From Gemmatimonadota bacterium (lineage in GTDB: Bacteria; Gemmatimonadota; Gemmatimonadetes; Longimicrobiales; Gaopeijiaceae): a DNA stretch of 51,864 nt. Shown here in pieces: positions 6,267 to 33,068 of this stretch. Both the position numbers and the translations under genes were made by a program. Position 1 is the first letter of the stretch. Every line of letters starts with the position of its first letter. The stretch lies in NCBI GenBank assembly GCA_028873845.1, contig JAPPNO010000010.1:1-51864 (forward strand), written 5' to 3'. Below the pieces are notes generated by a model. The model did no database searches. It was not told the DNA's origin and saw only the letters and a program-made list of their open reading frames with translations.

Positions 6267-7445
6267 ATGAGTGACTCAATGACCACGCCCCGCTGGACCA
6301 CGATTCTCGCGCTGGCACCCCTCACCATCGGATGCGAGGGCCCCGGCGGCACCGCCGGCCCCGGACTCCACGCGGCGATGCGGGACAGCGCCGACATTCT
6401 GATTGTCGAGAACAGCCAACCCGCGCCCGACTCCCGGCTCCCGTGGGAGATCGGCGCGCAACCGTCCCTCTCGATCGGTTCCGTCGCAAGCGGCGGGGCG
6501 GACGAATTGTTTCGGGTTACGGATGCCATCCGGCTCGGGGACGGCCGGATCGTGGTCGCCAACCTGGGCTCCAACGAGCTGAAGGTCTTCGGTCCCGATG
6601 GTTCCCATGCCGGAACCTGGGGTCGCCGGGGTGAGGGACCCGGTGAATTCACCGCCCACGGTCCGACAGCCGTCGCACACTGGCCGGGGGACTCGGTCGC
6701 CGCCGCCGATGCGCCCTACAGCCCCAGACTGCCGATCTTCGACATGAACGGCAACCACGGCCGCGATGTGGCCTTCGAGGCCACCCGGGGCGGTATTCTC
6801 GACGTGCTGCCGGACGGGAGGATGGTCTCGCGGGGCAGTTACGTATTCAACCGATCGGCCGTCTTTGAGACCAGGGACCTCGTTCGCCTGGAAACGGAAT
6901 GGTCGGTTCTGGACGTGGACGGGACGCTGTCCGCCTCACTTGGGATGCTTCCCTACGGCGAGGCGTATTTCAGCGAGACGTGGGGAGGAGACATGCAGCA
7001 CCCCTTCCAGCGCCGCACCGTGGGCACCGTGTGGGGAGATCTCCTGGCGGTCGGGGTGCAGGACAGCTACGAGATCAAGGCCTTCGCCGCGGACGGATCG
7101 CTGGTCAGAATCGTCCGGCGCGACTGGGACCCGCGAACCCCCACCCAGGCCGAGTACGACGAACGGGCACCCTGGGGCGTGCCCCCGGTGGACGCCTACC
7201 CGGCCTTCGGGGAGATCCTCTCGGACCGGGCCGGGTATCTCTGGGTGCGGGAATACCGGGTATCCGGCGAGGGGGCCGAGGTGTGGACGGTGTTCGATCC
7301 GGAAGGGCGGGTTCAGGGGCTGGTCGAGACGCCGTCCGGGCTGGACATTTTCGAGATCGGCGAGGACTACCTGCTGGGGTTGGCGGAGGATGAGCTGGGG
7401 GTGGAGTATGTGCAGCTGTGGGCGCTGGACCGGGAGGGGGGTTGA
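6267..7445 (+). CDS. Six-bladed beta-propeller lipoprotein, array A copy 3
   Basis: A 392-residue paralogue. The ATG at 6267 has a plausible ribosome-binding site (AAGGA, 6252-6256) and opens a signal ending in the lipobox LTIGC. Family blocks are all present: 'SRLPWEIGAQPSLSIG', 'AIRLGDGRIVVANLGSNELK', 'GTWGRRGEGPGEF', 'WGDLLAVGVQDSYEIKAF', 'LWVREYRVSG', 'FEIGEDYLLGLAEDELGVE' and 'QLWALDREGG'. It is about 18 residues shorter than copy 2, mainly between the 'PTQAEYDE' segment and 'PPVDAYPAF'. An in-frame extension back to 6123 would read through the stump of the lost copy and is not favoured. Predicted surface or periplasmic lipoprotein of unknown ligand. Confidence 0.86.
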   Translation: MSDSMTTPRWTTILALAPLTIGCEGPGGTAGPGLHAAMRDSADILIVENSQPAPDSRLPWEIGAQPSLSIGSVASGGADELFRVTDAIRLGDGRIVVANLGSNELKVFGPDGSHAGTWGRRGEGPGEFTAHGPTAVAHWPGDSVAAADAPYSPRLPIFDMNGNHGRDVAFEATRGGILDVLPDGRMVSRGSYVFNRSAVFETRDLVRLETEWSVLDVDGTLSASLGMLPYGEAYFSETWGGDMQHPFQRRTVGTVWGDLLAVGVQDSYEIKAFAADGSLVRIVRRDWDPRTPTQAEYDERAPWGVPPVDAYPAFGEILSDRAGYLWVREYRVSGEGAEVWTVFDPEGRVQGLVETPSGLDIFEIGEDYLLGLAEDELGVEYVQLWALDREGG

Positions 7446-7468
7446 AGCGGGCACGAGGACGGCGGTCC

Positions 7469-7497
7469 TTTACGGAAGTCGTAACACGCCTTACGAT
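7469..7497 (+). promoter_or_regulatory. higBA promoter overlapped by three phased operator half-sites
   Basis: TTACG (7470-7474), CGTAA (7480-7484) and TTACG (7491-7495) alternate in orientation with spacers of 5 and 6 bp, so centres are one helical turn apart. They overlap a possible promoter: -35 TTTACG (7469-7474), 17-bp spacer, -10 TACGAT (7492-7497). The -10 ends 8 nt before the higB ATG, implying a leaderless mRNA. HigA-type antitoxins autorepress through such inverted repeats (family knowledge); binding here is inferred. Confidence 0.55.
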
Positions 7498-7505
7498 CAG
7501 AGCGC

Positions 7506-7783
7506 ATGATCCGAAGCTTCAAGGACCGGAAAACGCGACGCTTCTTCGAAGGTCAGCATGTCCCGGCGTTTCACGGTTTCGCGATCAGGCGGTGCGCCGA
7601 CTGGCCCTGCTGGACAGCGCGAAAACGCTGGCCGACCTGGCCGCGCTGCCAAGCAACCGGCTGGAAGCACTGCGCGGCGATCGCGTCGGCCAATACAGCA
7701 TTCGGATCAACGTTCAGTGGCGCATTTGCTTCCGTTGGACTGACGACGGACCGTGTGACGTCGAAATCGTGGACTATCACTGA
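7506..7783 (+). pseudogene. higB: HigB-type RelE/ParE toxin, frameshifted
   Basis: HigB toxins are ~92-residue ribosome-dependent mRNA endonucleases. The N-terminal part (MIRSFKDRKTRRFFEG...) reads in the frame of the ATG at 7506. The rest (RDQAVRRLALLDSAKTL, NRLEALRGDRVGQYSIRIN, QWRICFRW, DVEIVDYH-stop) reads in another frame ending at 7783. The switch lies near 7575-7590, in a CG-rich 'ttcgcgatcagg', and fits loss of one or four bases. Read through the switch, the protein matches the family end to end, including the strongly conserved 'GQYSIRIN.QWRICFRW' block. So the gene is intact except for this lesion, which may be a real inactivating mutation or a sequencing error. It is followed after 11 bp by an intact higA. 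Confidence 0.8.
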
Positions 7784-16357: not shown

Positions 16358-16964
16358 TATCGGCGCTCTGGTCAGCAATGGGGATCTCGAAGATGTCGCG
16401 TTCCATGAGTTTGCCCACGGCCTCGGGTTTGGGCCCGGTTACTTCGACGACCACGACCTGCTCAACACCGGTTCCGACCCGCACTTCAGCGGACCGCTGG
16501 CGATCGCGGCGTTCAATTCCGCGGGCGGCACCTCGTACACGGGAGCCAAGGTGCCGGTCTCGTCACCTGACCACGCCCACTGGCCGGAGTCCGTATTCGA
16601 ACTTGAGGTGATGACTCCCCTGATGGACCCCGCCAGGACACACCCCTACAGCGCCGTCACGCTGCAGGCCATGGCCGATCTGGGCTATGTGGTCGACGTG
16701 TCGCTGGCGGACGACTATCAGCTGTCCGGCGTTTCGCCGCCGCGGGTGGCCGGCCCGGTAATCGACCTGAGCAACGATGTCGTGCAGGGACCGGTCATGG
16801 TCATCGATGCCGATGGCCGGATCGTTCGGGTGATTCCTCCTCCGCCGGGAACGGTCCTGCCGTCCTTCCAACGCAGGGAGGTGCAGCTCGACCGCCGCGA
16901 CAGTGACGGACCCGTCCGCTGGACCCGCATCCCGTCAACCCGGCGGCGTCCTTCCGGTCGCTGA
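16257..16964 (+). pseudogene. Leishmanolysin-like (M8) metallopeptidase domain, out of frame and missing its first part
   Basis: The frame from 16257 reads 'VDGPGGTVARASYC', 'MFDVDDIGAL', the zinc motif HEFAHGLG (HExxHxxG, from 16404), then 'SPDHAHWPESVFELEVMTPL' with the downstream His, and 'SAVTLQAMADLGYVVD'. This is the order seen in bacterial leishmanolysin-like domains. Family members usually have about 70-100 further residues (the 'AF..Aa.RWe.iI' region) between the stalk and the 'DGPGG' phrase. These are absent and the frame differs from the upstream Ig/CARDB part. A deletion with frameshift at ~16256 is the simplest reading. Its 3' end overlaps the convergent TPR gene by 30 bp. Confidence 0.75.
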
Positions 16965-18806
16965 CCGGTCCCGCCCCCTGCCCTGCCACACCCCCTGGGC
17001 CTGCCGCTCGATCGCTCTGAACCGGGAATCCGCCCTCAGCGGATCCCAAACCGGGTCCCGTCTCAGCGACAGCAACGCCGGATCCCTCCTGTCCACCGCA
17101 ATCTCCAGCTGTTCAAGGGCCCCCTCGAAGTCACCCAGACCGACCGCCGTCAACGCAAGCTCCACGCTGGACACCCGCTCGCCCCGCTGCTGCCGCGCCT
17201 GGTTGTTCCAGTCCCTCCACTCCCAGTAGGTCGCGGGGTCCAGGGGGTCGAAGCGGCCGCGCAATTCCTCGACCGCCGCGCGGGCGTCCGCCGTCTCACC
17301 CATCGTCGCCAGGATCCGCTCCTCCCGAACCTGGACCGCGCCGGCGTAGTCCTCCTGTCTGAGGTGCAGGTCCTCAAGCGCCATCCACGCCGGCACCAGC
17401 CGCGGACTCTCGTCCACCATGGACCGGAGTCCGGCGGCCGCGCTGTCGTATTGGCCCGCTTCCCAGTGGCGGCGGACCGCGGTCATCGGTGACGGCTGTC
17501 CGAGTCGCCTGCCGAGCCCCGTCTCCTCGCGCGCGTACCTGCGCCGGAGCGAATCGCCCGCCTCAAGTGCTCTCATGCCTCCGCCGAACGCCTCCTGGAT
17601 CGTGGCCCGCAGCCCTTCGAACGCTCCGCCGTGCTCCTGGTCCAGCCGGTCCTCCAGGACGACCATCACGGTCCTGACCTCGTCCTCGGCCCCGCCCAGC
17701 TCCGCGGCCATCTCCAGGTCTTCCCGGACCCTCGCGATCACATCGGGGGGGATCGAGTCGGCCTGCGCCAGCGCCGCCACCCGGGCACCCGCGCGCCACG
17801 CCCACGCCCTCGCAAAGGTCGTATCGTTGGCCACCGCCCGGTCGAACCAGGTCAGCGCGGTTTCCGGTCCCTCCGGCGAGCCGCGCTCGAGTTCCTCCCG
17901 GCCGTGCAGGAAGGCCCGGTGCGCCTCCGGATCCACCTGGGCGATCTGCTCCGGCGCGGGGACCACCTCCGCGCCCAGTTCCCCCTGCACCAGCGTGGCG
18001 ATGTCGACCGCGATCTCGGTCTGGAGGCGCAGGATGTCCTTCATCTCGCGCTGCCAGGTGAGCGACTCCATGTGGGTGTCCGAGGGCGCGTGAAGGAGCT
18101 GGATCGAGATGCGAACGCTGTCGCTCTCGGCAGTCATGGCAACCGAACCGGTGACGATGGCCTGTACCCGCAGTTCGGCCGCGATCTCCGGGAGCAGCTG
18201 GTCGGTGGTGCGGTAGCGCTCGACCGAGGTGCGCGAGACGACGCGCAGGCTGGTCAGCTCGCTCAGCCGCGTGATGATCTCGTCGTGGAGCTGGCGGGCG
18301 AAGAGGTCGTCACCCTCGGCGAAGTGGGCCAGCGGAAGGACGGCGATGGCGGTGATGGGGGCGGCGGGGTCGCGTGAGGCGAAGGCGGCGTCCGCGGGCT
18401 GCGCGGCCTCCCGCGGACGGCTGGCGTCCGGCGGTACCATGGCGCTCCGGCTGAACCACCAGGCGCCCAGTCCCGCCGAGACCGCCGTCACGCCGATCAG
18501 AGCCAGAACGGGAAGCAGCCGTCCCCGGCTCGCGGGAAGGAGGGACCGTGTGCGCGTCAGGCCCTCGTCACCGAGGTCGTATACCCACGACAGGGCCACC
18601 GCGACGGGAAACCCGAGGGTGACGAAGACCACCAGCGTCTGCAGCGCCCAATCCGGCGCGTTGAAGGCGGGCAGCACGATTTCGCCCAGTTGCAGCAGGA
18701 CGAAACCTCCGGCGACGTAGATGCCGCCGACCCGGAAGACGCCTCGGCGGCGCACTTCGGCCCAGAAGGTGTTCGGCTGCTGCATGTCGGGCTGTGGATC
18801 CGTCAC
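16935..18806 (-). CDS. Membrane protein with TolB/FlgO-like and TPR domains
   Basis: A 623-residue protein. The N terminus 'FWAEVRRRGVFRVGGIYVAGG' is followed by hydrophobic segments at roughly 25-48, 54-75 and 96-118. A periplasmic TolB-N/FlgO-like domain follows ('AIAVLPLAHFAEGDDLFARQ', 'LHDEIITRLSELTSLRVVSR', 'VQAIVTGSVAMTAESDSVRI'). The C-terminal ~330 residues are TPR-like helical repeats ('AHRAFLHGREELERG', 'TFARAWAWRAGARVAALAQ', 'LVPAWMALEDLHLRQEDYAG'). Similar proteins are usually annotated as TPR or adenylate-cyclase-associated proteins, but no cyclase domain is present here. It probably scaffolds an envelope complex or signalling. It converges on the M8 remnant with a 30-bp overlap of 3' ends. 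Confidence 0.8.
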   Translation of the reverse strand: MTDPQPDMQQPNTFWAEVRRRGVFRVGGIYVAGGFVLLQLGEIVLPAFNAPDWALQTLVVFVTLGFPVAVALSWVYDLGDEGLTRTRSLLPASRGRLLPVLALIGVTAVSAGLGAWWFSRSAMVPPDASRPREAAQPADAAFASRDPAAPITAIAVLPLAHFAEGDDLFARQLHDEIITRLSELTSLRVVSRTSVERYRTTDQLLPEIAAELRVQAIVTGSVAMTAESDSVRISIQLLHAPSDTHMESLTWQREMKDILRLQTEIAVDIATLVQGELGAEVVPAPEQIAQVDPEAHRAFLHGREELERGSPEGPETALTWFDRAVANDTTFARAWAWRAGARVAALAQADSIPPDVIARVREDLEMAAELGGAEDEVRTVMVVLEDRLDQEHGGAFEGLRATIQEAFGGGMRALEAGDSLRRRYAREETGLGRRLGQPSPMTAVRRHWEAGQYDSAAAGLRSMVDESPRLVPAWMALEDLHLRQEDYAGAVQVREERILATMGETADARAAVEELRGRFDPLDPATYWEWRDWNNQARQQRGERVSSVELALTAVGLGDFEGALEQLEIAVDRRDPALLSLRRDPVWDPLRADSRFRAIERQAQGVWQGRGRDRSATGRTPPG

Positions 18807-18845
18807 TTCGGTCCTCGCGGGTGACTGCGGGCTCGCGGCTGGTCG

Positions 18846-18863
18846 AATAGGCCTACTGTGAAT
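18846..18863 (+). promoter_or_regulatory. Intergenic 18-bp motif shared with 48563-48580
   Basis: AATAGGCCTACTGTGAAT matches AATAGGACCACTGTGAAT at 48563 in 16 of 18 positions. It lies in the divergent region between the TPR gene (start 18806, minus) and the Tat-SDR gene (start 19086, plus). GAATAGG is also directly repeated at 18845 and 18860. It could be a regulator-binding site; evidence is limited to the match. The rest of the 280-bp gap shows nothing else recognisable. Confidence 0.35.
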
Positions 18864-19085
18864 AGGACATCAAGATGGGGCGAGATGTTGCGCCACGGGA
18901 GACCCCGGACGGTCGGCGGTGCCGGTGCCGATCATTGCGGTGCGGGCCTGGGCGGCCATCTTCCTCGTGACGGGATTCCCGGGCACGCGCAGGCGCGACA
19001 TGCGAGCGAAGTATCGAGATGCACCTCGGTTCGCGCCGCCTGACGCCTGAGCCGACAGACCACCAGCGAGGGAGACACACGAACG

Positions 19086-20285
19086 ATGGACACGAACCGG
19101 AGAGCCTTTCTCAAGACCGCCACGGCTGCCGGCGGGGCGCTGGCGGCGGGCCTGGCGGGGGCCGGCAAGCTGGCGGGCGGGTCCACCGCCGCTGGCCACC
19201 CGGGTCTCGCCTCGTCGCGCCCCCCACCCCCCCGTTCCCTCAGGATCCTCATCCTCGGCGGGACCGGCTTCATCGGCCCGCACCAGGTCGAGTACGCCCT
19301 GTCGCGCGGCCATGAAGTCACCCTCTTCAACCGGGGACGGACCAACACGCACCTCTTCCCCGGGGTGGAGAAGCTCGTCGGGGATCGCGCGAATGACCTT
19401 TCCGCGCTGGAAGGGCGAAGCTGGGACGCGGTGGTGGACAACTCGGCGACGAGCGCCCCGCAGTGGGTGGAGCTGAGCGCGAACCTGCTCAAGGACAGCT
19501 GCGAACGCTACATCTTCGTCTCCACGCGTTCGGTCTACGCGGACACCAGCCGGGTCCCGATGACCATTGCCGCGCCCGTGTGGACGTATGAGCGTGCGGG
19601 GGTCGAGCCCGGTGCCGGGCGGCTGCCGTACGGGCTCGCCAAGGCCCTGTCCGAGCAGATCGCCCGTGACGCTTTCGGGCCCGAGCGCACCCTCGTCTTC
19701 CGGCCCGGCCTGATCATCGGTCCAGGCGACACGACGGACCGTTTCACCTATTGGCCCGTGCGCATTCATCGCGGCGGCGAGGTCCTCGCGCCCGGCGACG
19801 GCACCGACCCCGTTCAGATCATCGACGTGCGCGATTTCGGGGAATGGCTGATCGAGATGGCCGAGGCGGGGGAGTCGGGGACGTACAACGTGGTGGGACC
19901 GCGCACGCCCCGGCCCATGGCGGAGCTGCTCTACGGGATACGCGCGGTGACCACGGCCGAGACGACGTTCACCTGGGTCGACACGGACTTCCTGGTCAAC
20001 GCGGGGCTGCGGCCGTACCGGGAGTTGCCGGTGTGGCGGCCGGCGCGGGACGGGGCGGAGGGGTTCGCGCGGTTCGACCTCACGCCCGAGGTGGAGAAGG
20101 GGCTGACGTTCCGGTCGCTGGCGGATACGGCGGCGGCGACGCTGGAGTACCATTTTTCGCGGCCGGCCGAGCGGCAGGCGGCGCTGCGGGCGGGGGTGGG
20201 GGCGGAGCGGGAGCGCGAGGTGCTGGATCTGTGGCGGGCGTTTCGGCGGGCCGGGTCGAACCCTCTATTGGGGCGAAGGGCATGA
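19086..20285 (+). CDS. Tat-exported NAD-dependent epimerase/dehydratase-like SDR
   Basis: The N terminus 'MDTNRRAFLKTATAAGGALA' is a twin-arginine signal, so a folded, cofactor-loaded enzyme should be exported. After a Pro-rich linker, the extended-SDR fold starts with 'RILILGGTGFIGPHQVEYAL' (Rossmann GxxGxxG), 'GHEVTLFNRG', and 'YIFVSTRSVYA'. The active-site Tyr/Lys pair is likely in 'PYGLAKALSEQ' (YxxxK, Y-G-L-A-K). It resembles the subgroup related to chloroplast mRNA-binding CSP41 and sugar-nucleotide reductases. Length 399 aa. The gene starts a run of six closely spaced genes ending at 26739 and sits 32 bp before the amidohydrolase. The substrate is unknown. Confidence 0.85.
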   Translation: MDTNRRAFLKTATAAGGALAAGLAGAGKLAGGSTAAGHPGLASSRPPPPRSLRILILGGTGFIGPHQVEYALSRGHEVTLFNRGRTNTHLFPGVEKLVGDRANDLSALEGRSWDAVVDNSATSAPQWVELSANLLKDSCERYIFVSTRSVYADTSRVPMTIAAPVWTYERAGVEPGAGRLPYGLAKALSEQIARDAFGPERTLVFRPGLIIGPGDTTDRFTYWPVRIHRGGEVLAPGDGTDPVQIIDVRDFGEWLIEMAEAGESGTYNVVGPRTPRPMAELLYGIRAVTTAETTFTWVDTDFLVNAGLRPYRELPVWRPARDGAEGFARFDLTPEVEKGLTFRSLADTAAATLEYHFSRPAERQAALRAGVGAEREREVLDLWRAFRRAGSNPLLGRRA

Positions 20286-20317
20286 GGCTTTTCCCAACCA
20301 ACAGGAAGACCGAAACG

Positions 20318-22069
20318 ATGAGATACTCCGCACTGTCGGCCAAGCGGTTCGTGCGCACGGCCTCGCTTGCCGGCGGCATCCTCCTCCTCGCCGCCTGCGC
20401 CGATTCGCAGCCCGGCGCCGACGCGCCCACGACCGCCGACCTCGTGCTCCGCGGCGGGGTCGTCGCGACCGTCGACGCCGACAACACCATGGCCGAGGCC
20501 CTCGCCATTACCGACGGCTGGATTGTCGCGGTGGGCAGCAACGATAAGGTGGGCGCGTACATAGGCGGCGAAACCGAGGTCATTGAGCTCGATGGCCGCT
20601 TCGCTGCGCCCGGGTTCATCGAGGGACACGGGCACTACATGAGCCTGGGCAACAGCAAGACAATCCTGGACCTCAACGGCGCCGCAAACTGGGACGCCAT
20701 CGTGGAGATGGTGGCCGAGGCGGCCCGGGAAGCCGAGCCAGGTCAATGGATACGCGGGCGCGGCTGGCACCAGGAGAAGTGGGATCGCGCGCCCGATCCG
20801 GCCGCCGAGGGCAATCCGACCCACGCGTCCCTCTCCGCGGTCAGCCCCGACAACCCGGTCCTCCTGGGCCACGCCTCCGGTCACGCCGCCTTCGCCAACG
20901 CGGCCGCCCTGACCGCCGCCGGCTACAACCGCGACTCCGAGCCCCCGCCCGGAGGCGAACTGGTCCGTGATGAGAACGGCGAACTCACCGGCCTCCTCCG
21001 CGAGACCGCCCAGCGCCCGGTTTCCGCAGCCTTCACCCGCTCCCAGTCGGGCCGCACCGCGGAACAGATCGACGCGCAGTTCCGCCGCGAGGTCGCGCTG
21101 GCCGCCGAAGAGGCCCTCTCGAAGGGTGTCACCTCGTTCCAGGACGCGGGCACGCCCTTTTCAACCATTGACCGGCTCAAGCAACTGGAAGACGAGGGCG
21201 CGCTCCCGGTCCGCCTCTACGTCATGGTGCGCGGCCAGTCCAACGAGGAGATGGACGCGCGCCTGGCCGGCTACTACATGCCGTCGGAGGGCGACGACTA
21301 CCTGACCGTGCGCTCCGTCAAGCGCCAGATCGACGGGGCGCTGGGGTCGCACGGGGCGTGGCTGCTGGAGCCGTACGAGGACATGCCCTCGTCTACCGGC
21401 CTCGTGCTGGAACCCGTCGAGGACATCGCCGGCACCGCGCACGTCGCCGTCAAGCACGGCTACCAGGTCAACACGCATGCGATCGGCGACCGCGCAAACC
21501 GCGAAGTCCTCGACATCTACCAGGCCGTCTTCGACTCGGCGGGCGCGGGGGACGACCTGCGCTGGCGCATCGAGCACGCGCAGCACGTCCACCCCGACGA
21601 CATCCCCCGCTTCGCCGAACTGGGCGTACTCGCCTCCATGCAGGGCGTCCACGCCACCTCAGACGCGCCCTGGATCCCCCTCCGCCTGGGCGACGATCGC
21701 GCCGAAAAGCGAAGCTACATGTGGCGCGCGTTCATGAACGCAGGCGTCCCCATCAACAACGGAACAGATGTTCCAGTCGAGGACATCGACCCGCTGGCCA
21801 GCTTCCGCTCGTCGGTCACGCGTCAGACGGCGGACGGATCCGTCTTCTACCCGGAGCAGAAGATGACCCGCACCGAGGCGCTCCGCAGCTACACCATCAA
21901 CAACGCATTCGCGGCCTTCGAGGAGGCGTACAAGGGGTCGCTCGAGGTCGGGAAGCTGGGCGATGTGGTCGTGATCGACCGCGACATCCTGACCGTGCCG
22001 GACGCGGAGCTCGCGGATGCGCGCGTGGACGTGACGATCGTGGGCGGGGAGGTGCGGTATGCGCGGTAG
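20318..22069 (+). CDS. Amidohydrolase_3 family lipoprotein (YtcJ-like)
   Basis: A 583-residue exported metal-dependent amidohydrolase. The ATG at 20318 opens a signal with lipobox LLAAC (Cys 27); an upstream in-frame ATG at 20282 only lengthens the leader. Catalytic motifs: 'FIEGHGHYMSLG' (HxH), 'NTHAIGDRANREVLD', 'RIEHAQHVHPDD', and the late Asp in 'INNGTDVPVEDIDPLASF'. The composite barrel is completed by the C-terminal 'GKLGDVVVIDRDI'. YtcJ-like enzymes hydrolyse amide or cyclic C-N bonds, and the exact substrate here is unknown. The stop overlaps the start of the RidA gene, indicating translational coupling. An exported amidohydrolase next to an exported RidA suggests shared chemistry on nitrogen compounds in the envelope. 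Confidence 0.88.
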   Translation: MRYSALSAKRFVRTASLAGGILLLAACADSQPGADAPTTADLVLRGGVVATVDADNTMAEALAITDGWIVAVGSNDKVGAYIGGETEVIELDGRFAAPGFIEGHGHYMSLGNSKTILDLNGAANWDAIVEMVAEAAREAEPGQWIRGRGWHQEKWDRAPDPAAEGNPTHASLSAVSPDNPVLLGHASGHAAFANAAALTAAGYNRDSEPPPGGELVRDENGELTGLLRETAQRPVSAAFTRSQSGRTAEQIDAQFRREVALAAEEALSKGVTSFQDAGTPFSTIDRLKQLEDEGALPVRLYVMVRGQSNEEMDARLAGYYMPSEGDDYLTVRSVKRQIDGALGSHGAWLLEPYEDMPSSTGLVLEPVEDIAGTAHVAVKHGYQVNTHAIGDRANREVLDIYQAVFDSAGAGDDLRWRIEHAQHVHPDDIPRFAELGVLASMQGVHATSDAPWIPLRLGDDRAEKRSYMWRAFMNAGVPINNGTDVPVEDIDPLASFRSSVTRQTADGSVFYPEQKMTRTEALRSYTINNAFAAFEEAYKGSLEVGKLGDVVVIDRDILTVPDAELADARVDVTIVGGEVRYAR

Positions 22070-22730
22070 GGGCTTGTCGCCAGGTCCGCGCCACATGCGC
22101 GGAAGAGGTGGTCCGGGGGATGAAGGGCGACGGTTTGCGCCATTGCAACGGCCGCGTTCAGGACCGGCCGCCCTCCGGCCCCGTTGCGCCTGCATCAGCC
22201 TTCCCCTGGCCGCGCTCGTCACCATCATCGCGTGCGAGTCACCCCCTTCACCCGGCGACAATCAACAACCGGAGGGCGGCGCAATGGCCGAAACGGGCCC
22301 CACCGAACACACTGCCCAGGAGGGCGGCGCAATGGCCGAACCCACCCCGATCGAACACATCGTCCCCGAGGGCGTCGCCCGCCTTCCCGTCTTCACCCCT
22401 GCGGTGCGCGTCGGCGACCTCGTCTTCCTCTCCGGCGCCATCGGGACTCCGCCCACCGGTGAACTGCGCGTCGTGGAGGGCGGCGTCGGCCCCGAGACAC
22501 GCGCAACCATGGACAACATCGGCCGCGTCCTAAAGGCGGCGGGGCTCGGCTTCGAGGACCTCGTGAAGTGCACGGTCTTCCTGGCCGACATCGCCGACTA
22601 CGCGGCCATGAACGAGGTCTACGTCACATACTTCGAGGGCATGGAACCGCCCGCGCGCTCCGCCATGGCCGGGAGCGGGCTGGCACTCGGGGCGAAGGTG
22701 GAGATCGAGTGTATTGCGAGAGGGAAGTAG
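22059..22730 (+). CDS. RidA/YjgF family protein with lipoprotein leader
   Basis: The RidA domain occupies the last ~130 residues: 'RLPVFTPAVRVGDLVFLSGA', 'RATMDNIGRVLKAAGLGFED', 'VKCTVFLADIADYAAMNEVY', and 'PPARSAMAGSGLALGAKVEI'. The Arg in 'ARSA' corresponds to the catalytic/carboxylate-binding Arg of active RidA imine deaminases. Upstream is a long leader with a hydrophobic stretch and lipobox-like 'LVTIIAC', so the full product may be lipid-anchored. RidA proteins are usually cytosolic, so this is unusual. Two 'gcaATGGCC' starts (22284, 22332) within a 48-bp tandem repeat could alternatively give a cytosolic form. The ATG at 22059 overlaps the amidohydrolase stop by 11 bp. Confidence 0.82.
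   Translation: MRGRGLSPGPRHMRGRGGPGDEGRRFAPLQRPRSGPAALRPRCACISLPLAALVTIIACESPPSPGDNQQPEGGAMAETGPTEHTAQEGGAMAEPTPIEHIVPEGVARLPVFTPAVRVGDLVFLSGAIGTPPTGELRVVEGGVGPETRATMDNIGRVLKAAGLGFEDLVKCTVFLADIADYAAMNEVYVTYFEGMEPPARSAMAGSGLALGAKVEIECIARGK
22272..22367 (+). repeat. 48-bp tandem repeat carrying duplicated start-like sites in the RidA gene
   Basis: Two 48-bp units (22272-22319 and 22320-22367) begin with an identical 21-bp block that contains a purine-rich GAGGGC and an ATG 12 bp later. They encode 'EGGAMAETGPTEHTAQ' and 'EGGAMAEPTPIEHIVP'. Confidence 0.65.
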
Positions 22731-24034
22731 CGAAGACGGTCTTGGCGGGAAGGCGGTTGCGGGCCCTCCGATCCATCGCCGGATGCTGCGCGGGCCTGTT
22801 GGGCATTGCGTTTTCGGGTTGCGGTGGCGCTGAGCAGGACCCACCGGAAGTCGAGAACCCCATCGCCAGCGAGATGCACGACAGCGGCGGCATCCGCATC
22901 ATCGAGAACGACCGGCCTCCCGATGGCTCGCGGCTCGACTGGCGAATCGGCCCCGAGCCGGCCGTGTCCATCGGCACGCGCGAGGGCGAGGACCCCTACC
23001 TGCTGCACCGGGTCTCCGACGCCACGAGGATGCGCGACGGACGGATCGTCGTAGCGAACGGGGGGTCGAGCGAACTCAGGTTCTTCGACTCCCTGGGCAA
23101 CCACCTGGCAAACCGGGGGGGCTCCGGCGAAGGACCCGGTGAGTTCGTTTTCCTCCGGCGCGTCGATCCGTGGCCGGGCGATTCGATCGTAGCCTGGGAG
23201 GCGCCGCGTCTCGGCTTCTCCGTATTCGACAGCGGCGGCAGCTTCGGACGCACCTTCACACTGTTGAACGCGAATCCACGACCCTTGCGCCCGTCGCCCG
23301 AGTCCGCCGCACCAGCCACGACGCCCGCCGGACACCAGGGTGGACCGGTCCCCCGCGGCATGTCTGCCGGGATGTTGCTGTGGCTCCCGGTTTCAGCCAC
23401 AACAGACGGCGGGATCCTCGCAATTGCGGGCGGCACGGACGAGAACACGACCGTCGCGCAAATCAGAGGCAGCGAAGGAGGGGAACTGAGCTCCCCGGTT
23501 ACGCATCCGGGCCCGGAGCCCATGCTGTTGACCCAGGCCTACGCCGGAGAACCGGCCGTGGTGCCCTGGGGCGATCTCATGATCGTCACCAGCACGATGC
23601 GCTACGAGTTGAAGGCCTTCGGCCGGGACGGCGAGCTCGCCCGAATCGTCCGGCGCGGCCATGAGCTGCGGGCGCCCACCGAGGCCGAGGTATTCGCCTA
23701 CATGGAGGAGAACTCCCCTCCCGGAATGAGTCCCGAACAGATCCGCCGCCAATTCCAATCCCTGACGGTCCCCGAGCACTTCCCCGCCTTCGGCAGGATC
23801 ATGACCGACGCGGCAGGTCACCTCTGGGTGCGGGAATACGACCTGCCCGACATGGAGAGGGACGCACCGCTGTGGACCGTCTTCGACGCGGAGGGGCGGG
23901 TGTTGGGGTTCGTGGAGACGCCGAAGGGCCTGGGGATCTACGAGATCGGCGAGGACTACATCCTGGGGAAGGTGCGGGATGAGCTCATGGTCGAGCATGT
24001 GCAGCTGTGGCCGCTGGCGCGATCAGGTATGTGA
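22709..24034 (+). CDS. Six-bladed beta-propeller lipoprotein, array B copy 1
   Basis: Conserved propeller blocks: 'HDSGGIRIIEN', 'SRLDWRIGPEPAVSIG', 'ATRMRDGRIVVANGGSSELR', 'GSGEGPGEF', 'WGDLMIVTSTMRYELKAF', 'LWVREYDLPD', 'VFDAEGRVLGFVETPKGL', and 'YEIGEDYILGKVRDELMVE'. The GTG at 22709 was chosen: it follows AAGGTGGAG (22694-22702), overlaps the RidA stop by 22 bp, and gives a signal ending in the lipobox-like 'IAFSGC'. TTG starts at 22742 or 22757 are alternatives. There is a Pro/Ala-rich insert at ~190-220 ('SPESAAPATTPAGHQGG'). It is translationally linked to RidA and precedes two more propellers, so it is probably part of the same envelope complex. Ligand unknown. Confidence 0.83.
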   Translation: MYCEREVAKTVLAGRRLRALRSIAGCCAGLLGIAFSGCGGAEQDPPEVENPIASEMHDSGGIRIIENDRPPDGSRLDWRIGPEPAVSIGTREGEDPYLLHRVSDATRMRDGRIVVANGGSSELRFFDSLGNHLANRGGSGEGPGEFVFLRRVDPWPGDSIVAWEAPRLGFSVFDSGGSFGRTFTLLNANPRPLRPSPESAAPATTPAGHQGGPVPRGMSAGMLLWLPVSATTDGGILAIAGGTDENTTVAQIRGSEGGELSSPVTHPGPEPMLLTQAYAGEPAVVPWGDLMIVTSTMRYELKAFGRDGELARIVRRGHELRAPTEAEVFAYMEENSPPGMSPEQIRRQFQSLTVPEHFPAFGRIMTDAAGHLWVREYDLPDMERDAPLWTVFDAEGRVLGFVETPKGLGIYEIGEDYILGKVRDELMVEHVQLWPLARSGM

Positions 24035-24083
24035 GCCGCATTTCCGGGCGCCATTCGTCCGCATCACCATGGAGGACATTGAT

Positions 24084-25394
24084 ATGAAGAGAAGCCGAAC
24101 TTGGCGCGTCGCGGGGGCCATGGCGCTCGTGGCCGTCGCCGCGTGCGAGCCGCGGGACGACACGGAAGCGTCGGGGTCCGACGCGGCAGCCGCGCCGCAA
24201 CACGAGATTCACGACAGCGCCGGGATTCGGATCATCCAGAACCGGGCACCGGCACCCGGTTCGCGCCTGGGGTGGGTCGTCGGAGAGGAGCCCCTTGTGT
24301 CCATCGGCACTCGCGACGCCTCCGACGCCTTCCAGTTCCACCGGGTCGGCGACGCGACCAGGCTCGGGGACGGTAGGATCGTCGTCGCCAATGGCGGCTC
24401 GAACGAGCTCCTGGTCTTCGACGCGGATGGGAACCACCTCGGCGCCTGGGCGGGCGAGGGCGATGGACCCGGCGAGTTCTGGGACCTCTCCACCGTGCGT
24501 CCGTGGCCCGGGGACTCCCTGATCGCCGGGGACGACCTGCAGGGGCGGGCCTCCATCTTCGGCCTGTCCGGGGCGCACGGCCGGACGTTGTCGTTGCGCG
24601 GCCCGCCCGATCCTGCCACGCGGGAGATGGCGGCGGCCGGTCAGGCGCCGGAGGCCGAAATCGGCAGCGTCGAGCCCCATATCGTACTCAGAGTGTTGCC
24701 CGACGGCACCTTGCTCACGCGCACCCCCCGGGGCTACGCCCAGGGGTTCCACCGGTGGGAGTCCCCGTATGCGCTGATGGACGCCGACGGAGCGACCCGC
24801 GCGTCGCTCGGCAACTACCTCGGCATCGAGACCTTTTCCGCGTTCTACCAGCAGGCCGACGGGAACTATGCCGTCATTCCGTTGTGGCATCCCTTCGGCA
24901 AGACGACGGTCACCACGGCGTGGGGGGATCTGGCCGCAATCGGCGACACCGAGACCTACGAGATCAGGGCCTACCGGAGCGACGGATCGCTGGCCCGGAT
25001 TGTCCGCCGCGACCACGAGATGAGAATCCCCACACAGGCCGAACAGGACGAGGCATTTAGCGACCGGTTCGCGGGGCTCTCGGAGGAAGACCGCGAACCG
25101 AGGATGGAGGTCGCCGCCACTGTCCCGCTGGTAGAGAGTTTTCCGGCGTACTCCAGACTCCGCGGCGACGCCCCGGGCAACCTCTGGGTCGGGGAGTTCA
25201 GGCTTCCCGAGGCCGCGTACGAGGGGGCGTTATGGACCGTCTTCGACGCGGAGGGGCGGGTGCTGGGGTTCGTGGAGACGCCGGGCGGGTTGAGCATCTT
25301 CGAGATCGGCGAGGACTACATTCTGGGGAGTACCACCGACGAGGTGGATGTCGAGTACGTGCAGCTGTGGGAGCTCGGCAGGTCGAATCGCTGA
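24084..25394 (+). CDS. Six-bladed beta-propeller lipoprotein, array B copy 2
   Basis: A 436-residue paralogue. The ATG at 24084 has a strong ribosome-binding site (GGAGG, 24071-24075, 8-nt spacing), which decides it over the ATG at 24069. The signal ends in the lipobox AVAAC. Blocks: 'HDSAGIRIIQN', 'SRLGWVVGEEPLVSIG', 'ATRLGDGRIVVANGGSNELL', 'GEGDGPGEF', 'WGDLAAIGDTETYEIRAY', 'LWVGEF', 'VFDAEGRVLGFVETPGGL' and 'FEIGEDYILGSTTDEVDVE'. The gap to the preceding copy is 49 bp. The 3' third is nearly identical in DNA to copy 1 around the 'FDAEGRVLGFVETP' segment, indicating recent duplication or gene conversion. Confidence 0.88.
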   Translation: MKRSRTWRVAGAMALVAVAACEPRDDTEASGSDAAAAPQHEIHDSAGIRIIQNRAPAPGSRLGWVVGEEPLVSIGTRDASDAFQFHRVGDATRLGDGRIVVANGGSNELLVFDADGNHLGAWAGEGDGPGEFWDLSTVRPWPGDSLIAGDDLQGRASIFGLSGAHGRTLSLRGPPDPATREMAAAGQAPEAEIGSVEPHIVLRVLPDGTLLTRTPRGYAQGFHRWESPYALMDADGATRASLGNYLGIETFSAFYQQADGNYAVIPLWHPFGKTTVTTAWGDLAAIGDTETYEIRAYRSDGSLARIVRRDHEMRIPTQAEQDEAFSDRFAGLSEEDREPRMEVAATVPLVESFPAYSRLRGDAPGNLWVGEFRLPEAAYEGALWTVFDAEGRVLGFVETPGGLSIFEIGEDYILGSTTDEVDVEYVQLWELGRSNR

Positions 25395-25440
25395 TGCCGT
25401 ACCCGGGTGCCGAAGGCGGTCACCGCCGGAAAACACGACC

Positions 25441-26739
25441 ATGAACACACCGAACCCGCGACCGACGGCCCTCGTCGCGCTCGTCTCCCTCGCCGCATGC
25501 GGAACCGACACCGACTCGGAACAGTCTCGGCCCGGCACGCAGGCAATCCCACAACACCAGGCCCGCGACAGCGCCGGCATCCGCATCATCGAGAATCGCA
25601 GGCCCGCCGAGGGATCACGGCTCGGGTGGCGAATCGGGGCCGAACCCGCGCTGACGATCGGCTCGGTTTCGGGGGACGAGGCATTTCAGCTACACCGGGT
25701 CGACGACGCGTTGAAGCTCCCGGACGGCCGCCTCGTCGTCGCGAACGGAGGCTCGCACCAGCTGCTGGTCTTCAACGAGGTCGGCATCTATCTCGCAGCG
25801 TGGGGACAGAAGGGCGAGGGTCCCGGCGACTTCGGCGGCGCATGGGGCGGAGACGCTCTCGGCTCCAGGCTTTTCTGGGCGGAACCATGGCCGGGTGACT
25901 CCATCGCCGTGTGCCACGGCACGTATGAGCTGGGACTGGACCTGTTTTCGACCTTCGACTCGGACGGCAATCACGGGCAAACCATCAACCTGGCACCCGA
26001 CGGGTCGAGTACGCGCTGCCGCGATGTGCTCCCCGACGGCTCGATCCTCGCGAGCCGCGAACCGAAGTGGTCGGGATACCCTCCCACCGGGATGCAGCGC
26101 AACGAGATGGAGTTCTTCCTCGTGGAGGGAGACGGCACGCGGCGGGCCGAACTCGGCAGCCATCCCGGAGCCGAAGAGTTCTACTACCTGGACGAAACCG
26201 TCTTTCCTCCGTTCAGCTTCTGGATGCTCGACCCTCCGTTTCAGCAAACGGTGGTGTGGGGTGCGTGGGACGGACTGGCGATCGTCAGCCCCTCGGACCG
26301 GTACGAGATCAGGGCGTATGGCCCCGAAGGCACCCTCCAGCGCATCGTGCGGCGGGATCACGCCGTCCGGCTTCCCACCGAGGCCGATCTCGAGTCCTAC
26401 CGGAACGGCCAACTGGAATCCATACGCGGTTCCGAGTACAGAGAGATGATGGCCCCGGTCCTGGGCGCGTTGGAAGTGCCGCCGTCATTCCCCGCCTTCT
26501 CGGCCATCGAAGTCGATGCGGTCGGTTACCTCTGGGTGCGGGAGTACGATCTGCCGGGTCAAGAGCGCGATCGCGCCCTGTGGACCGTCTTCGATTCCGG
26601 CGGGATCGTGCTGGGCTTCATGGAGACACCGCCCGACCTCGCGATCTACGAGATCGGCGAGGACTACATCGTGGGCAAGGTCTACGACGAACTGCGGGTG
26701 GAGTACGTACAGATTTGGGAGCTGGCGCGGTCGGATTGA
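25441..26739 (+). CDS. Six-bladed beta-propeller lipoprotein, array B copy 3
   Basis: A 432-residue paralogue with signal and lipobox SLAAC (Cys 20). Blocks: 'RDSAGIRIIEN', 'SRLGWRIGAEPALTIG', 'DALKLPDGRLVVANGGSHQL', 'GEGPGDF', 'WPGDSIAVCHG', 'DVLPDGSIL', 'DGLAIVSPSDRYEIRAY', 'LWVREYDLPGQERDRALWTV', 'LGFMETPPDL' and 'YEIGEDYIVGKVYDELRVE'. It begins 46 bp after copy 2 and is the last gene of the six-gene run. The next 130 bp hold an AT-rich palindrome and then a convergent gene. The array B copies share the 'HDSAGIRIIEN' opening and differ as a group from array A, so the two arrays expanded separately. Confidence 0.88.
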   Translation: MNTPNPRPTALVALVSLAACGTDTDSEQSRPGTQAIPQHQARDSAGIRIIENRRPAEGSRLGWRIGAEPALTIGSVSGDEAFQLHRVDDALKLPDGRLVVANGGSHQLLVFNEVGIYLAAWGQKGEGPGDFGGAWGGDALGSRLFWAEPWPGDSIAVCHGTYELGLDLFSTFDSDGNHGQTINLAPDGSSTRCRDVLPDGSILASREPKWSGYPPTGMQRNEMEFFLVEGDGTRRAELGSHPGAEEFYYLDETVFPPFSFWMLDPPFQQTVVWGAWDGLAIVSPSDRYEIRAYGPEGTLQRIVRRDHAVRLPTEADLESYRNGQLESIRGSEYREMMAPVLGALEVPPSFPAFSAIEVDAVGYLWVREYDLPGQERDRALWTVFDSGGIVLGFMETPPDLAIYEIGEDYIVGKVYDELRVEYVQIWELARSD

Positions 26740-30842: not shown

Positions 30843-31808
30843 ATGAGCCTGGACGACACCCGCATCTCCGATGAGGAGGCACGCGCGCTCTGGCGCCGCG
30901 CGGCCGAGTTGCAGGCCGAGGCCGCCCACCGCCTCGAGGAGCGTTCGCGACAGCTGGCCCCCCGGGAGGACCCCTCCGATACGGCGGAGGCCGACGGGTA
31001 CCTCCTGGCAGACGTCCGGGCCGCCGCGGAAGGCGCCGGCATCTCGCCGGAGTTCGTCGATCATGCGCTCGCGGAGTCCCGCAACATGGCTCTTGTCGAA
31101 GGAGCGCAGCCGCGGCCATCGGGGATGGCGGCCCGTTTCCTGGGCCAGCCGCCGCGCACGCTGGAAGTCTCCCGGGTGTTCCACGCACCGGCCGAGGAGA
31201 TCTACGCAGCCATGCAGCGCGTCCTCCCGGAGCATCCGTATCGCCTGAGCCTCGTCGATCACCACGGTGCCGATCCGGTCGACGGGGGCATGCTGGTCTT
31301 CAAGGTGCCCGCCTTCTCGTACACGGCAACGGTGGCCGACCAGTCGTTCGCATACGAGATGAGCTGGGCGGACCTGCGGCAGCTGGTCTTCAGCCTCCGG
31401 CGCCTGGACACGAGTCCCCCGGCGACCGAGCTGACCGTTCAAGGGAACCTGACACCCAGCCACAGGAAGAACATGTGGGTCGGGGGCATCATGTCCGGGA
31501 TTGGCGCTGCGTTGGGCGGGGTCGGTGGTGCTATTGCAGGCGGCGCCGCGGCCGTCGCTTTCGGGATTGGGGGTGTCGCGGTGGGTGTGGCGGCAATGGG
31601 CTTCCTTGCCGGGGGAGGATCGCTCGGCGGGCTGGCCATGTTGGGCTACCGCAGGTTGTATCGCTACGCTTTGCGCCGCGGGGAGAAGGCCATCCGCGAT
31701 CTGCTCGGCGCGATTGCCGTCGACATCGAGACCGGTGGAGGCTTCTCGAGCCCCAAGCCTCTTCCGAGCGCCTTTGCCGGGTTCCTTCGGGAGGGCCGGG
31801 TGCCCTAG
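30843..31808 (+). CDS. Hypothetical protein with Gly/Ala-rich membrane segments
   Basis: A 321-residue protein. The N-terminal ~90 residues are acidic and helical ('ISDEEARALWRRAAELQAEA', 'ADVRAAAEGAGISPEFVDHA'), resembling a short regulatory helical region. A middle part (about 105-200) reads like a START/SRPBCC-type domain ('LEVSRVFHAPAEEIYAAMQR'). It is followed by a glycine-rich hydrophobic stretch ('GIMSGIGAALGGVGGAIAGG', 'VGVAAMGFLAGGG') that should insert into or bend through a membrane. The ATG at 30843 was chosen; the frame is open further upstream but lacks coding character. It reads divergently from the BNR gene at 30639. The function is unknown. Confidence 0.6.
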   Translation: MSLDDTRISDEEARALWRRAAELQAEAAHRLEERSRQLAPREDPSDTAEADGYLLADVRAAAEGAGISPEFVDHALAESRNMALVEGAQPRPSGMAARFLGQPPRTLEVSRVFHAPAEEIYAAMQRVLPEHPYRLSLVDHHGADPVDGGMLVFKVPAFSYTATVADQSFAYEMSWADLRQLVFSLRRLDTSPPATELTVQGNLTPSHRKNMWVGGIMSGIGAALGGVGGAIAGGAAAVAFGIGGVAVGVAAMGFLAGGGSLGGLAMLGYRRLYRYALRRGEKAIRDLLGAIAVDIETGGGFSSPKPLPSAFAGFLREGRVP

Positions 31809-31883
31809 TCCGAACTTCCGGGTGCAGCCCGGCGACTCACCGCGCTCGCTGCCCGGCCGGCTTTGTCGACGGACTGTGTCTGT

Positions 31884-33068
31884 TCACGCCGTCAGGAAGA
31901 GAACGAACAGGAACCCCGGCAGCAGGATCATCATGTACAGCCACCAAACGATGGAACCCTTGAGTATGGTCCGTATCCAGCCGTCCCGGTAATACCGGCG
32001 AAGCGCAATCAGGTAGTACACCTGGGGAATCAGGACGAAGAACGCCCGGATCCACGCTCCGGCCCATCCGGCCGGCGTGAGCTGGGCGGCCGCAAGACAC
32101 AGGAAGGTGAAGGTCTGGTTGTGCATTCCGAACACCAGGTGCTCGACAAAGAAACGCTTCTTGCGCACATAGCAGAAACCGAGGGCCAGGGCGAGAAACG
32201 GGAGCAGGAAGAACATCGCGATCGGCAGGTTCCCGATCGCACGCTGGACGAAGACCTCGGGGTCGTGGAGGAAGTCGATCGTGCTGGTGAGCAGCATTCT
32301 GACGAAGGAATTGGACCCGTCCGGGTCTTCCTGGCCGGCCGGCCGCGAAACCGCACGGTCCGCTTCGTCGGGGGACATCAGTCCCGCAATCAGCAGCCCG
32401 ACTCTCTTGAAGGTGTTTTCGTCCGGACGCCCCAGGATGTCGTCCAGCTTGCGGCCATGCGTCGGCCCAACCGCCGCCTTCAGTGCTTCAATCTGCGCCT
32501 CGCTCACCTGCGCATCGACGGACAGGTCCAGGTTGCGTCCCCCCGTGCGAAGAACGGGATCACCGCCATCGGGTCTCGGCGGCTGCCGGACCGGCTGGGG
32601 CGACTCGTCCGTGTCATCGTCCGTCACCTCTCCGGCAACCGACGGTGGCTCCCGCGAGTCGCCGGCCGGCACGAAAACACCCTCGGGCAGTGCCTCCGTG
32701 TCGCCGCCCATCCGGATCGCCCCCTCCGACCAGGAGTCCGGCATGGCGAACGACAGCACCAGCACGAAGAGGAAGCTGGTGAAGAGGTACAGCCTGATCG
32801 GCGACATGTACCGGGCGCGCCGGTTGCGGGAGAACTCGATTGTCAGGCTGCCGGGCTTGAAGAGGAGAAGCTTCAGCGTCTGGAAGAACCTCGAGTCCAT
32901 CTCGAAGGCCTCGCGGCCGAACTCCCAGACCACCGTGGCGAGGCCGCGGGCGTAGTTGCGGTCGTTCTGTCCGCACTGGGGGCAGAACGGGCTGGGGCGC
33001 ACGCTGCCGCAGTTCTCGCAGACGGACGGCGCGGGGCCGGCGGCGTTCTGATTGGATGAATCGGACAT
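31884..33068 (-). CDS. DUF3667 family membrane protein
   Basis: A 394-residue protein. The N terminus has a zinc-ribbon-like Cys pair set 'CENCGSVRPSPFCPQCGQND', then 'FEMDSRFFQTLKLLLFKPG' and 'RNRRARYMSPIRLYLFTSFL', the order typical of DUF3667 proteins. Later hydrophobic segments include 'GNLPIAMFFLLPFLALALGF' and the C-terminal 'GSIVWWLYMMILLPGFLFVL', giving about 4-5 membrane spans with a large loop of ~150 residues between. The ATG at 33068 is chosen so that the zinc ribbon lies close to the N terminus. The family role is unknown. It follows the M28 peptidase gene in the same direction after 181 bp and converges on the gene ending at 31808. Confidence 0.82.
   Translation of the reverse strand: MSDSSNQNAAGPAPSVCENCGSVRPSPFCPQCGQNDRNYARGLATVVWEFGREAFEMDSRFFQTLKLLLFKPGSLTIEFSRNRRARYMSPIRLYLFTSFLFVLVLSFAMPDSWSEGAIRMGGDTEALPEGVFVPAGDSREPPSVAGEVTDDDTDESPQPVRQPPRPDGGDPVLRTGGRNLDLSVDAQVSEAQIEALKAAVGPTHGRKLDDILGRPDENTFKRVGLLIAGLMSPDEADRAVSRPAGQEDPDGSNSFVRMLLTSTIDFLHDPEVFVQRAIGNLPIAMFFLLPFLALALGFCYVRKKRFFVEHLVFGMHNQTFTFLCLAAAQLTPAGWAGAWIRAFFVLIPQVYYLIALRRYYRDGWIRTILKGSIVWWLYMMILLPGFLFVLFLTA

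Follow-up and report, generated by a model that had tools for sequence, protein, structure and literature searches.

A six-gene operon of predicted exported proteins

The stretch of DNA analysed here (the window; 51,864 nucleotides, contig JAPPNO010000010.1 of GenBank assembly GCA_028873845.1, labelled C107 below) comes from a Gemmatimonadota genome assembled to 4.05 Mb in 137 contigs at a completeness of 96.5%. Between positions 19086 and 26739 it carries six consecutive genes, one of them for a protein of the RidA family, and every product bears an export motif. A sequence-only reading of this DNA had described these genes as an operon with an export signal on each product, and we recovered from the window all six open reading frames (ORFs), their intergenic spacings and their export motifs (Table 1). 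Recomputed in order, the spacings are 32 bp, an 11-bp overlap, a 22-bp overlap, 49 bp and 46 bp. A scan of the operon for promoters and terminators gave no signal exceeding chance, which leaves spacing, overlap and synteny as the evidence for its structure. Throughout, export by the Sec, twin-arginine (Tat) or lipoprotein route was called from sequence motifs alone, and families were assigned by Pfam and NCBIfam profile searches.

The first gene encodes a short-chain dehydrogenase/reductase (SDR) that matches the Epimerase profile (PF01370, E 4.6e-18) and carries the GGTGFIG nucleotide motif (GxxGxxG) and the YGLAK motif (YxxxK) expected of extended SDRs. Its N-terminus is MDTNRRAFLKTATAAGGALAAG; a predicted Tat motif at about 19095–19115, NRRAFLK in the window and NRRDFLK or TRRDFLT in relatives, is followed by a hydrophobic stretch. 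The second product matches Amidohydro_3 (PF07969, E 3e-100) across the full profile, and its metal-ligand motifs (HxH, HAIGD, EHA and TD, corresponding to HxH, His, His and Asp) align with those of 3icj; its lipobox is also found in relatives. The RidA core matches Ribonuc_L-PSP (PF01042, E 1.4e-28; 99.8 bits against a cut-off of 27.3) and scores 99.8 against TIGR00004, slightly below the cut-off of 106.25. In each of the three propeller-like ORFs the hydrophobic N-terminus ends at a lipobox; DUF5128 matches the second and third below its cut-off, and the first has no Pfam match.

Table 1. Coordinates of the operon and of the repeat in the RidA linker
Feature	Position	Strand	Basis and remarks
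Tat-exported extended SDR (NAD-dependent epimerase/dehydratase family), predicted	19086..20285	+	twin-arginine start, Pfam, synteny
Lipoprotein Amidohydro_3 (YtcJ-like) amidohydrolase, predicted	20318..22069	+	lipobox LLAAC, Cys27 at 20396-20398; Pfam; metal-ligand motifs
Lipoprotein RidA, predicted	22059..22730	+	lipobox TIIAC, Cys59 at 22233-22235; 11-bp overlap with amidohydrolase
Tandem 48-bp near-repeat, RidA linker	22269..22367	+	copies of the GGAGGG...ATGGCCGAA unit; ATG 22284 and ATG 22332, possible secondary starts
Lipoprotein 6-bladed-propeller-like protein 1, predicted	22709..24034	+	GTG start, 22-bp overlap with RidA, lipobox AFSGC
Lipoprotein propeller-like protein 2, predicted	24084..25394	+	lipobox AVAAC, weak DUF5128
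Lipoprotein propeller-like protein 3, predicted	25441..26739	+	lipobox SLAAC, weak DUF5128

A conserved lipoprotein signal on RidA

When the RidA core was searched across all 23 genomes of the host genus, orthologs with 88–100% identity to the window core were found in 20. All 20 ortholog frames share one layout, in which the end of the amidohydrolase, or a stop just upstream, leads into a hydrophobic stretch whose last residue is Cys, and a short linker connects this to the core. The stretch before the lipobox Cys differs among them in both length and letters while the Cys is kept, and the linker spans 17 residues in 13 of the 20. Our signal test, which required a start codon, a hydrophobic stretch and a lipobox together, was passed by 19 of the 20 same-genus orthologs and by 38 of 47 other same-family loci; as controls, 0.15% of dinucleotide shuffles passed, as did none of 67 in each of two other frames. 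The single same-genus failure (L010) has the hydrophobic stretch and the Cys, with no start codon within 60 residues. In a slightly widened form of the test, a signal was seen in none of 14 separate RidA paralogs in the genus.

The start region points the same way. In two orthologs (L008 and L013) the ATG equivalent to the RidA start opens the signal peptide directly (MRGSLSLATLITIIAC and MRGRGRLPIAALVVLVAC), and no Shine-Dalgarno-like match in the operon is stronger than that of the window start at 22059 (−14.4 kcal/mol). We conclude that the predicted RidA lipobox is not a chance feature. One mark of a bacterial lipoprotein, a signal whose lipobox Cys is kept in orthologs, is present in the predicted RidA lipoprotein.

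The conserved unit and its variable flank

Gene order was compared over 19 loci retrieved from the same genus. The amidohydrolase–RidA pair is present in all 19, preceded by the Tat-type SDR in 18; in the remaining locus the contig ends within the amidohydrolase, and the SDR is not visible there. The amidohydrolase also adjoins RidA in 12 genomes of eight other genera (G034, G035, G057, G059, G060, G062, G071, G089, G090, G091, G093 and G100), there without the SDR, and the linker in these loci often has the motif C[TS][IVL]E.R.DR. The conserved unit is thus SDR–amidohydrolase–RidA within the genus and amidohydrolase–RidA in eight further genera. The sequence-only reading had coupled RidA to an exported amidohydrolase and an exported dehydrogenase, and had named missing linkage in relatives as a finding that would count against it; a lipobox-bearing RidA does recur beside this amidohydrolase. 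The unit is not indivisible, since two genomes of the genus (G017 and G019) keep the SDR and the amidohydrolase and have lost RidA, which makes RidA accessory to the first two genes. A search for RidA remnants in relatives without the gene returned one 17-residue piece, in G019 (L085 5154–5204, E 2e-4).

The propellers follow a different pattern. They lie 3′ of RidA in 11 of the 19 same-genus loci, where up to three copies or remnants occur (at least one), and the other eight have none. Among these are the single-contig genomes G021 and G022, so the pattern is not a binning artefact, and no propeller was seen beside RidA among the other-genus loci compared. The propellers are dispensable, lineage-specific additions; we rejected them as core parts, and the suggestion that they serve the pathway as binding or scaffold components finds no support in gene order. 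Upstream of the operon, on the minus strand at 16935–18806, lies a gene for a large TPR protein that has a membrane segment at its N-terminus; the position of this gene is kept in several, not all, relatives.

Predicted enzymatic competence of the RidA core

The structure model of the window RidA has a predicted local distance difference test score (pLDDT) of 85, and its top PDB matches all belong to the RidA/YjgF family, with template-modelling (TM) scores mostly of 0.85–0.91. The catalytic-type Arg is core residue R109, encoded at 22656–22658. In an alignment of 15 diverse exported RidA members, R109, E124, N94 and K79 are invariant. The Arg has been tied to imine hydrolysis, and subfamilies that bear it are predicted to hydrolyse imines (Niehaus et al., PMC4433059). 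Both the Arg and the Glu that mark the imine-hydrolysing RidA and Rid1–3 subfamilies (PMC4433059) are present in the window protein. The active-site residues of an imine deaminase are thus retained in RidA, and we predict this activity for it. With the lipobox found in 19 of 20 orthologs, the proposal of an exported RidA that retains its catalytic Arg is supported. Two cysteines, C80 and C127 (in the KCT and VE.EC stretches), are likewise invariant among the 15 members; a disulfide between them is possible and would suit the envelope.

Exported RidA in other lineages

In a tree of 154 RidA cores, the signal-bearing forms, of lipoprotein or Sec type, make up one large group that spans Gemmatimonadota, Pseudomonadota, Myxococcota, Bacteroidota, Rhodothermota and one cyanobacterium. 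Export state changes six times on this tree, in which many forks are poorly supported; the largest of these changes concerns a single branch of unsignalled forms, most of them alphaproteobacterial.

The neighbours of exported RidA recur in several combinations. Fourteen genomes of other genera have a Tat-type GFO/IDH/MocA protein following RidA on the same strand, with or without the amidohydrolase. Its best NCBIfam match is glycoside 3-dehydrogenase, at 447 bits and so under the family cut-off of 750. These loci usually continue with a Sec- or lipoprotein-type 3-keto-disaccharide hydrolase, a Tat-type TIM barrel (inosose-dehydratase-like) and a GMC oxidoreductase, and in relatives a Tat-type M20 enzyme assigned to the hydantoinase/carbamoylase family (365 bits against a cut-off of 204) lies divergent to the amidohydrolase/GFO-IDH cassette. 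In G057 (L073, 6951–8126) a single protein joins a lipoprotein RidA to a domain of the 3-keto-disaccharide hydrolase type (PF01042, 101.3 bits; PF06439, 170.7 bits). Eleven loci, mostly from Woeseiaceae, Halieaceae and Lysobacterales, have a GMC dehydrogenase directly 5′ of RidA, preceded in most by a Tat-signalled small subunit (Gluconate_2-dh3); the nearest solved structure to this dehydrogenase is the large subunit of fructose dehydrogenase. Exported amine or amino-acid oxidases were absent from the window operon and from the conserved same-genus neighbours, and were seen with RidA in three genomes only (G069, G078 and G086), where a flavoprotein of the DAO/N-methyl-tryptophan-oxidase type (sarcosine-oxidase-like) lies 3′ of RidA and has a Tat start where readable. 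A candidate exported pyridoxal-phosphate (PLP) dehydratase beside RidA at L192 was rejected, as its N-terminal extension is not signal-like. In other phyla, unrelated genes make up many of the RidA neighbours.

The host genome (G000) has two other RidA matches, both on contig C118 (L117). One, at 7103–7600 on the minus strand, is a second predicted lipoprotein RidA (MNRPLLLIPTLVVLAAGCQFEVD); it directly precedes a dihydrodipicolinate-reductase-like ORF and adjoins a propeller-like lipoprotein. The other, at 17446–19086 on the plus strand, is an aldo-keto reductase with a C-terminal RidA domain (Pfam Aldo_ket_red and Ribonuc_L-PSP). Most genomes of the genus have a separate, short RidA that bears no signal; none turned up in this incomplete assembly. 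Three tandem RidA domains behind a Sec-type signal make up a further kind of protein, which occurs genus-wide (for example L118, G007:C34 at about 31785–32876, and L119, G021:C1 at about 1260023–1261075); such proteins are probably one-chain trimers for the periplasm.

Proposed pathway and alternative explanations

From the sequence evidence, we hold it evenly balanced whether the locus encodes an exported catabolic module in which a membrane-tethered RidA would act as an imine/enamine deaminase; this is the reading that we prefer. Its core would comprise the Tat-exported SDR, the lipoprotein Amidohydro_3 hydrolase and the lipoprotein RidA. The amidohydrolase would release or open an external nitrogen-containing compound, and the exported dehydrogenase would then oxidise the product. 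A RidA trimer, held in the membrane by three lipids, could convert a reactive imine or enamine to a carbonyl and ammonia before envelope components are damaged or the intermediate escapes. Judged from the neighbours of RidA in relatives, the likeliest substrate would be a sugar, glycoside or amino-acid derivative that bears an amino or amide group. The lipobox controls, the invariant residues, the amidohydrolase–RidA linkage, the exported oxidoreductase neighbours, the G057 fusion, the divergent carbamoylase and a periplasmic precedent for RidA all support this reading. We extend it tentatively, and with considerable doubt, to the proposal that envelope-anchored RidA forms a so far unrecognised, phylum-spanning class of deaminases for extracytoplasmic imines and enamines. 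In Gemmatimonadota, the amidohydrolase might free an amino group, the dehydrogenase oxidise the neighbouring carbon and RidA remove the nitrogen, so that compounds of the amino-glycoside type would be deaminated within the envelope before uptake.

The partner enzymes do not all speak for nitrogen chemistry. A DAO-like flavoprotein would yield imines by known chemistry; GFO/IDH and GMC enzymes yield ketones, from which imines or enamines would arise only where an amino group lies close by or attacks. The carbamoylase, amine-oxidase-like, glycoside 3-dehydrogenase and GMC neighbours are consistent with an imine/enamine route, and most of them are also consistent with nitrogen-free sugar oxidation. 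Several further points weigh against a deaminase module. SDRs usually act on alcohols, and the commonest partners of exported RidA (GFO/IDH and GMC) oxidise alcohols, not amines. Profile searches of the window operon found neither an amine oxidase nor a PLP enzyme. The amidohydrolase occurs with no RidA behind it in six genomes (G014, G017, G019, G036, G037 and G114), so the hydrolase can work without RidA. Finally, the active-site Tyr appears to be Phe in the window RidA, a change that is common in the family (PMC4433059).

As GFO/IDH and GMC enzymes give ketones, the main rival is a nitrogen-free role on 3-keto-sugar intermediates. Exported RidA would then hydrolyse or tautomerise an enol, an enediol or a 3-keto-sugar produced by these enzymes, with the window SDR as their local equivalent. 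Such a role would account for the commonest partners (glycoside-3-dehydrogenase-like GFO/IDH, 3-keto-disaccharide hydrolase, inosose-dehydratase-like TIM barrel and GMC), for the alcohol oxidation known from their families and for the fusion of one RidA to a 3-keto-disaccharide hydrolase. However, it leaves unexplained why the Arg and Glu that RidA uses on imino acids are invariant, and it sits poorly with the C–N chemistry implied by the amidohydrolase and carbamoylase neighbours and with the amine-oxidase-like partner in three genomes. We know of no Rid protein that acts on a nitrogen-free substrate, and we consider this explanation unlikely, if the strongest of the alternatives. It is very unlikely that the lipoprotein RidA serves the envelope as a chaperone or a sink for oxidants, switched on by hypochlorous acid, and that its place in the operon is incidental. 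This explanation would draw on E. coli RidA, which reportedly turns chaperone upon N-chlorination (PMC4284807), and on the envelope being first to meet oxidants; a general chaperone would not be expected to recur beside particular metabolic enzymes, to be fused with a sugar hydrolase or to keep its active site so strictly. We see a similarly slim chance that exported housekeeping enzymes are simply co-localised in a lipoprotein-rich genome, with no common pathway. The freely varying propellers, the loss of RidA in some relatives and the unrelated neighbours in other phyla would fit that explanation, whereas the amidohydrolase–RidA adjacency persists in nine genera, among which core identity falls as low as 58% and the flanks differ, and GMC–RidA adjacency recurs in the 11 mostly gammaproteobacterial loci.

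A further alternative concerns the protein itself: the window RidA could be made mainly or also from ATG 22284 or ATG 22332 in the linker and be partly cytosolic, the upstream stretch giving a minor product. Both ATGs follow strong Shine-Dalgarno-like matches (−10.0 and −10.8 kcal/mol, respectively), the second within the top 1.5% of 799 internal ATGs; the 48-bp tandem near-duplication that created these matches is also present in G003 (L005). Sixteen of the 20 same-genus orthologs have an internal ATG at the core, and the failure to find a separate short RidA in the incomplete host assembly would agree with a cytosolic product from this gene. Against this, the ATG is missing in four of the 20 orthologs, where only the upstream start is likely, and in other genera it is found at the core position in 20 of 73. 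A synonymous-codon control detected no selection for the internal Shine-Dalgarno matches beyond expectation, the lipobox is kept although its surroundings vary in sequence and length, and the 22059 start has the stronger match. An internal ATG as the true RidA start is thereby weakened, and we regard a mainly or partly internal origin as distinctly unlikely. Translation from the internal ATGs only, which the sequence-only reading had named as the outcome that would undo an exported RidA, is excluded in the four relatives without an internal ATG; an additional internal start, and with it a mixed lipoprotein and internal-start product, is possible in the window species.

Implications of a predicted envelope RidA

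The paradigm for RidA is the protection of cytosolic PLP enzymes from 2-aminoacrylate. The presence of RidA on a lipoprotein signal, beside exported enzymes, in this lineage of marine Gemmatimonadota and in a clade of relatives from multiple phyla suggests that imines or enamines are also processed outside the cytoplasm. The lipoprotein form is conserved and distinct from unsignalled paralogs in the same genomes, which implies either that reactive enamines or imines also arise in the envelope and need clearing or that imine hydrolysis is a step of an envelope pathway. The family is well defined, includes a fusion and has partners that recur, and so offers a route to what a Rid protein outside the cytosol acts on. 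Candidate functions also emerge for the lipoprotein YtcJ-type amidohydrolases and Tat-exported SDRs of Gemmatimonadota.

Comparison with known systems

It is useful to set the window operon beside systems in which RidA or its partners are known. Chlamydomonas reportedly has a periplasmic L-amino-acid oxidase complex with a RidA subunit (cited in PMC5053998); the Gluconacetobacter lao-cccA-ridA operon encodes a Tat oxidase, a cytochrome c and RidA (PMC5053998). These systems (PMC5053998) likewise place RidA outside the cytoplasm or beside a Tat oxidase, and the flavoprotein loci of G069, G078 and G086 resemble them. In contrast, the window pairs a lipoprotein RidA with an amidohydrolase and an SDR, and an amine oxidase is absent. 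The ong cluster of Pseudoalteromonas, which serves the use of N-acetylglucosamine (GlcNAc) 1-acid, contains the D-aminoacylase OngB and the RidA OngD, the latter required for growth with its role unassigned (PMC9537276). It resembles the window in joining an amidohydrolase-type deacylase and a RidA in one catabolic cluster; it differs in that its proteins are cytosolic, a D-amino-acid deaminase is included, and there are no SDR and no lipoproteins. Cassettes for 3-keto-glycosides (GFO/IDH, 3-keto-disaccharide hydrolase, TIM barrel and GMC) lie directly 3′ of amidohydrolase–RidA in relatives, whereas they are not in the window operon, and the host carries genes of this kind only at other genomic sites. 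The amidohydrolase is a full-length PF07969 member of the YtcJ-like Amidohydro_3 group, with 3icj and 3igh, both uncharacterised, as its closest solved structures; the window enzyme differs in being a predicted lipoprotein.

In the open literature that we searched, with subscription papers outside its scope, we found no description of a lipoprotein RidA or of RidA with GMC or GFO enzymes. Exported RidA itself has precedent in the systems above; neither the pairing of a conserved lipoprotein RidA and an amidohydrolase nor the spread of such a RidA next to sugar oxidoreductases that are exported was found described in that literature. As the window operon lacks the neighbours that define an amine-oxidase/RidA pair or a 3-keto-glycoside cassette, we file it in the Rid family (PF01042). 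The window RidA shares the fold and the catalytic-type Arg and Glu of that family, and it differs in its predicted lipoprotein signal and in its linkage to exported hydrolases rather than to cytosolic PLP enzymes.

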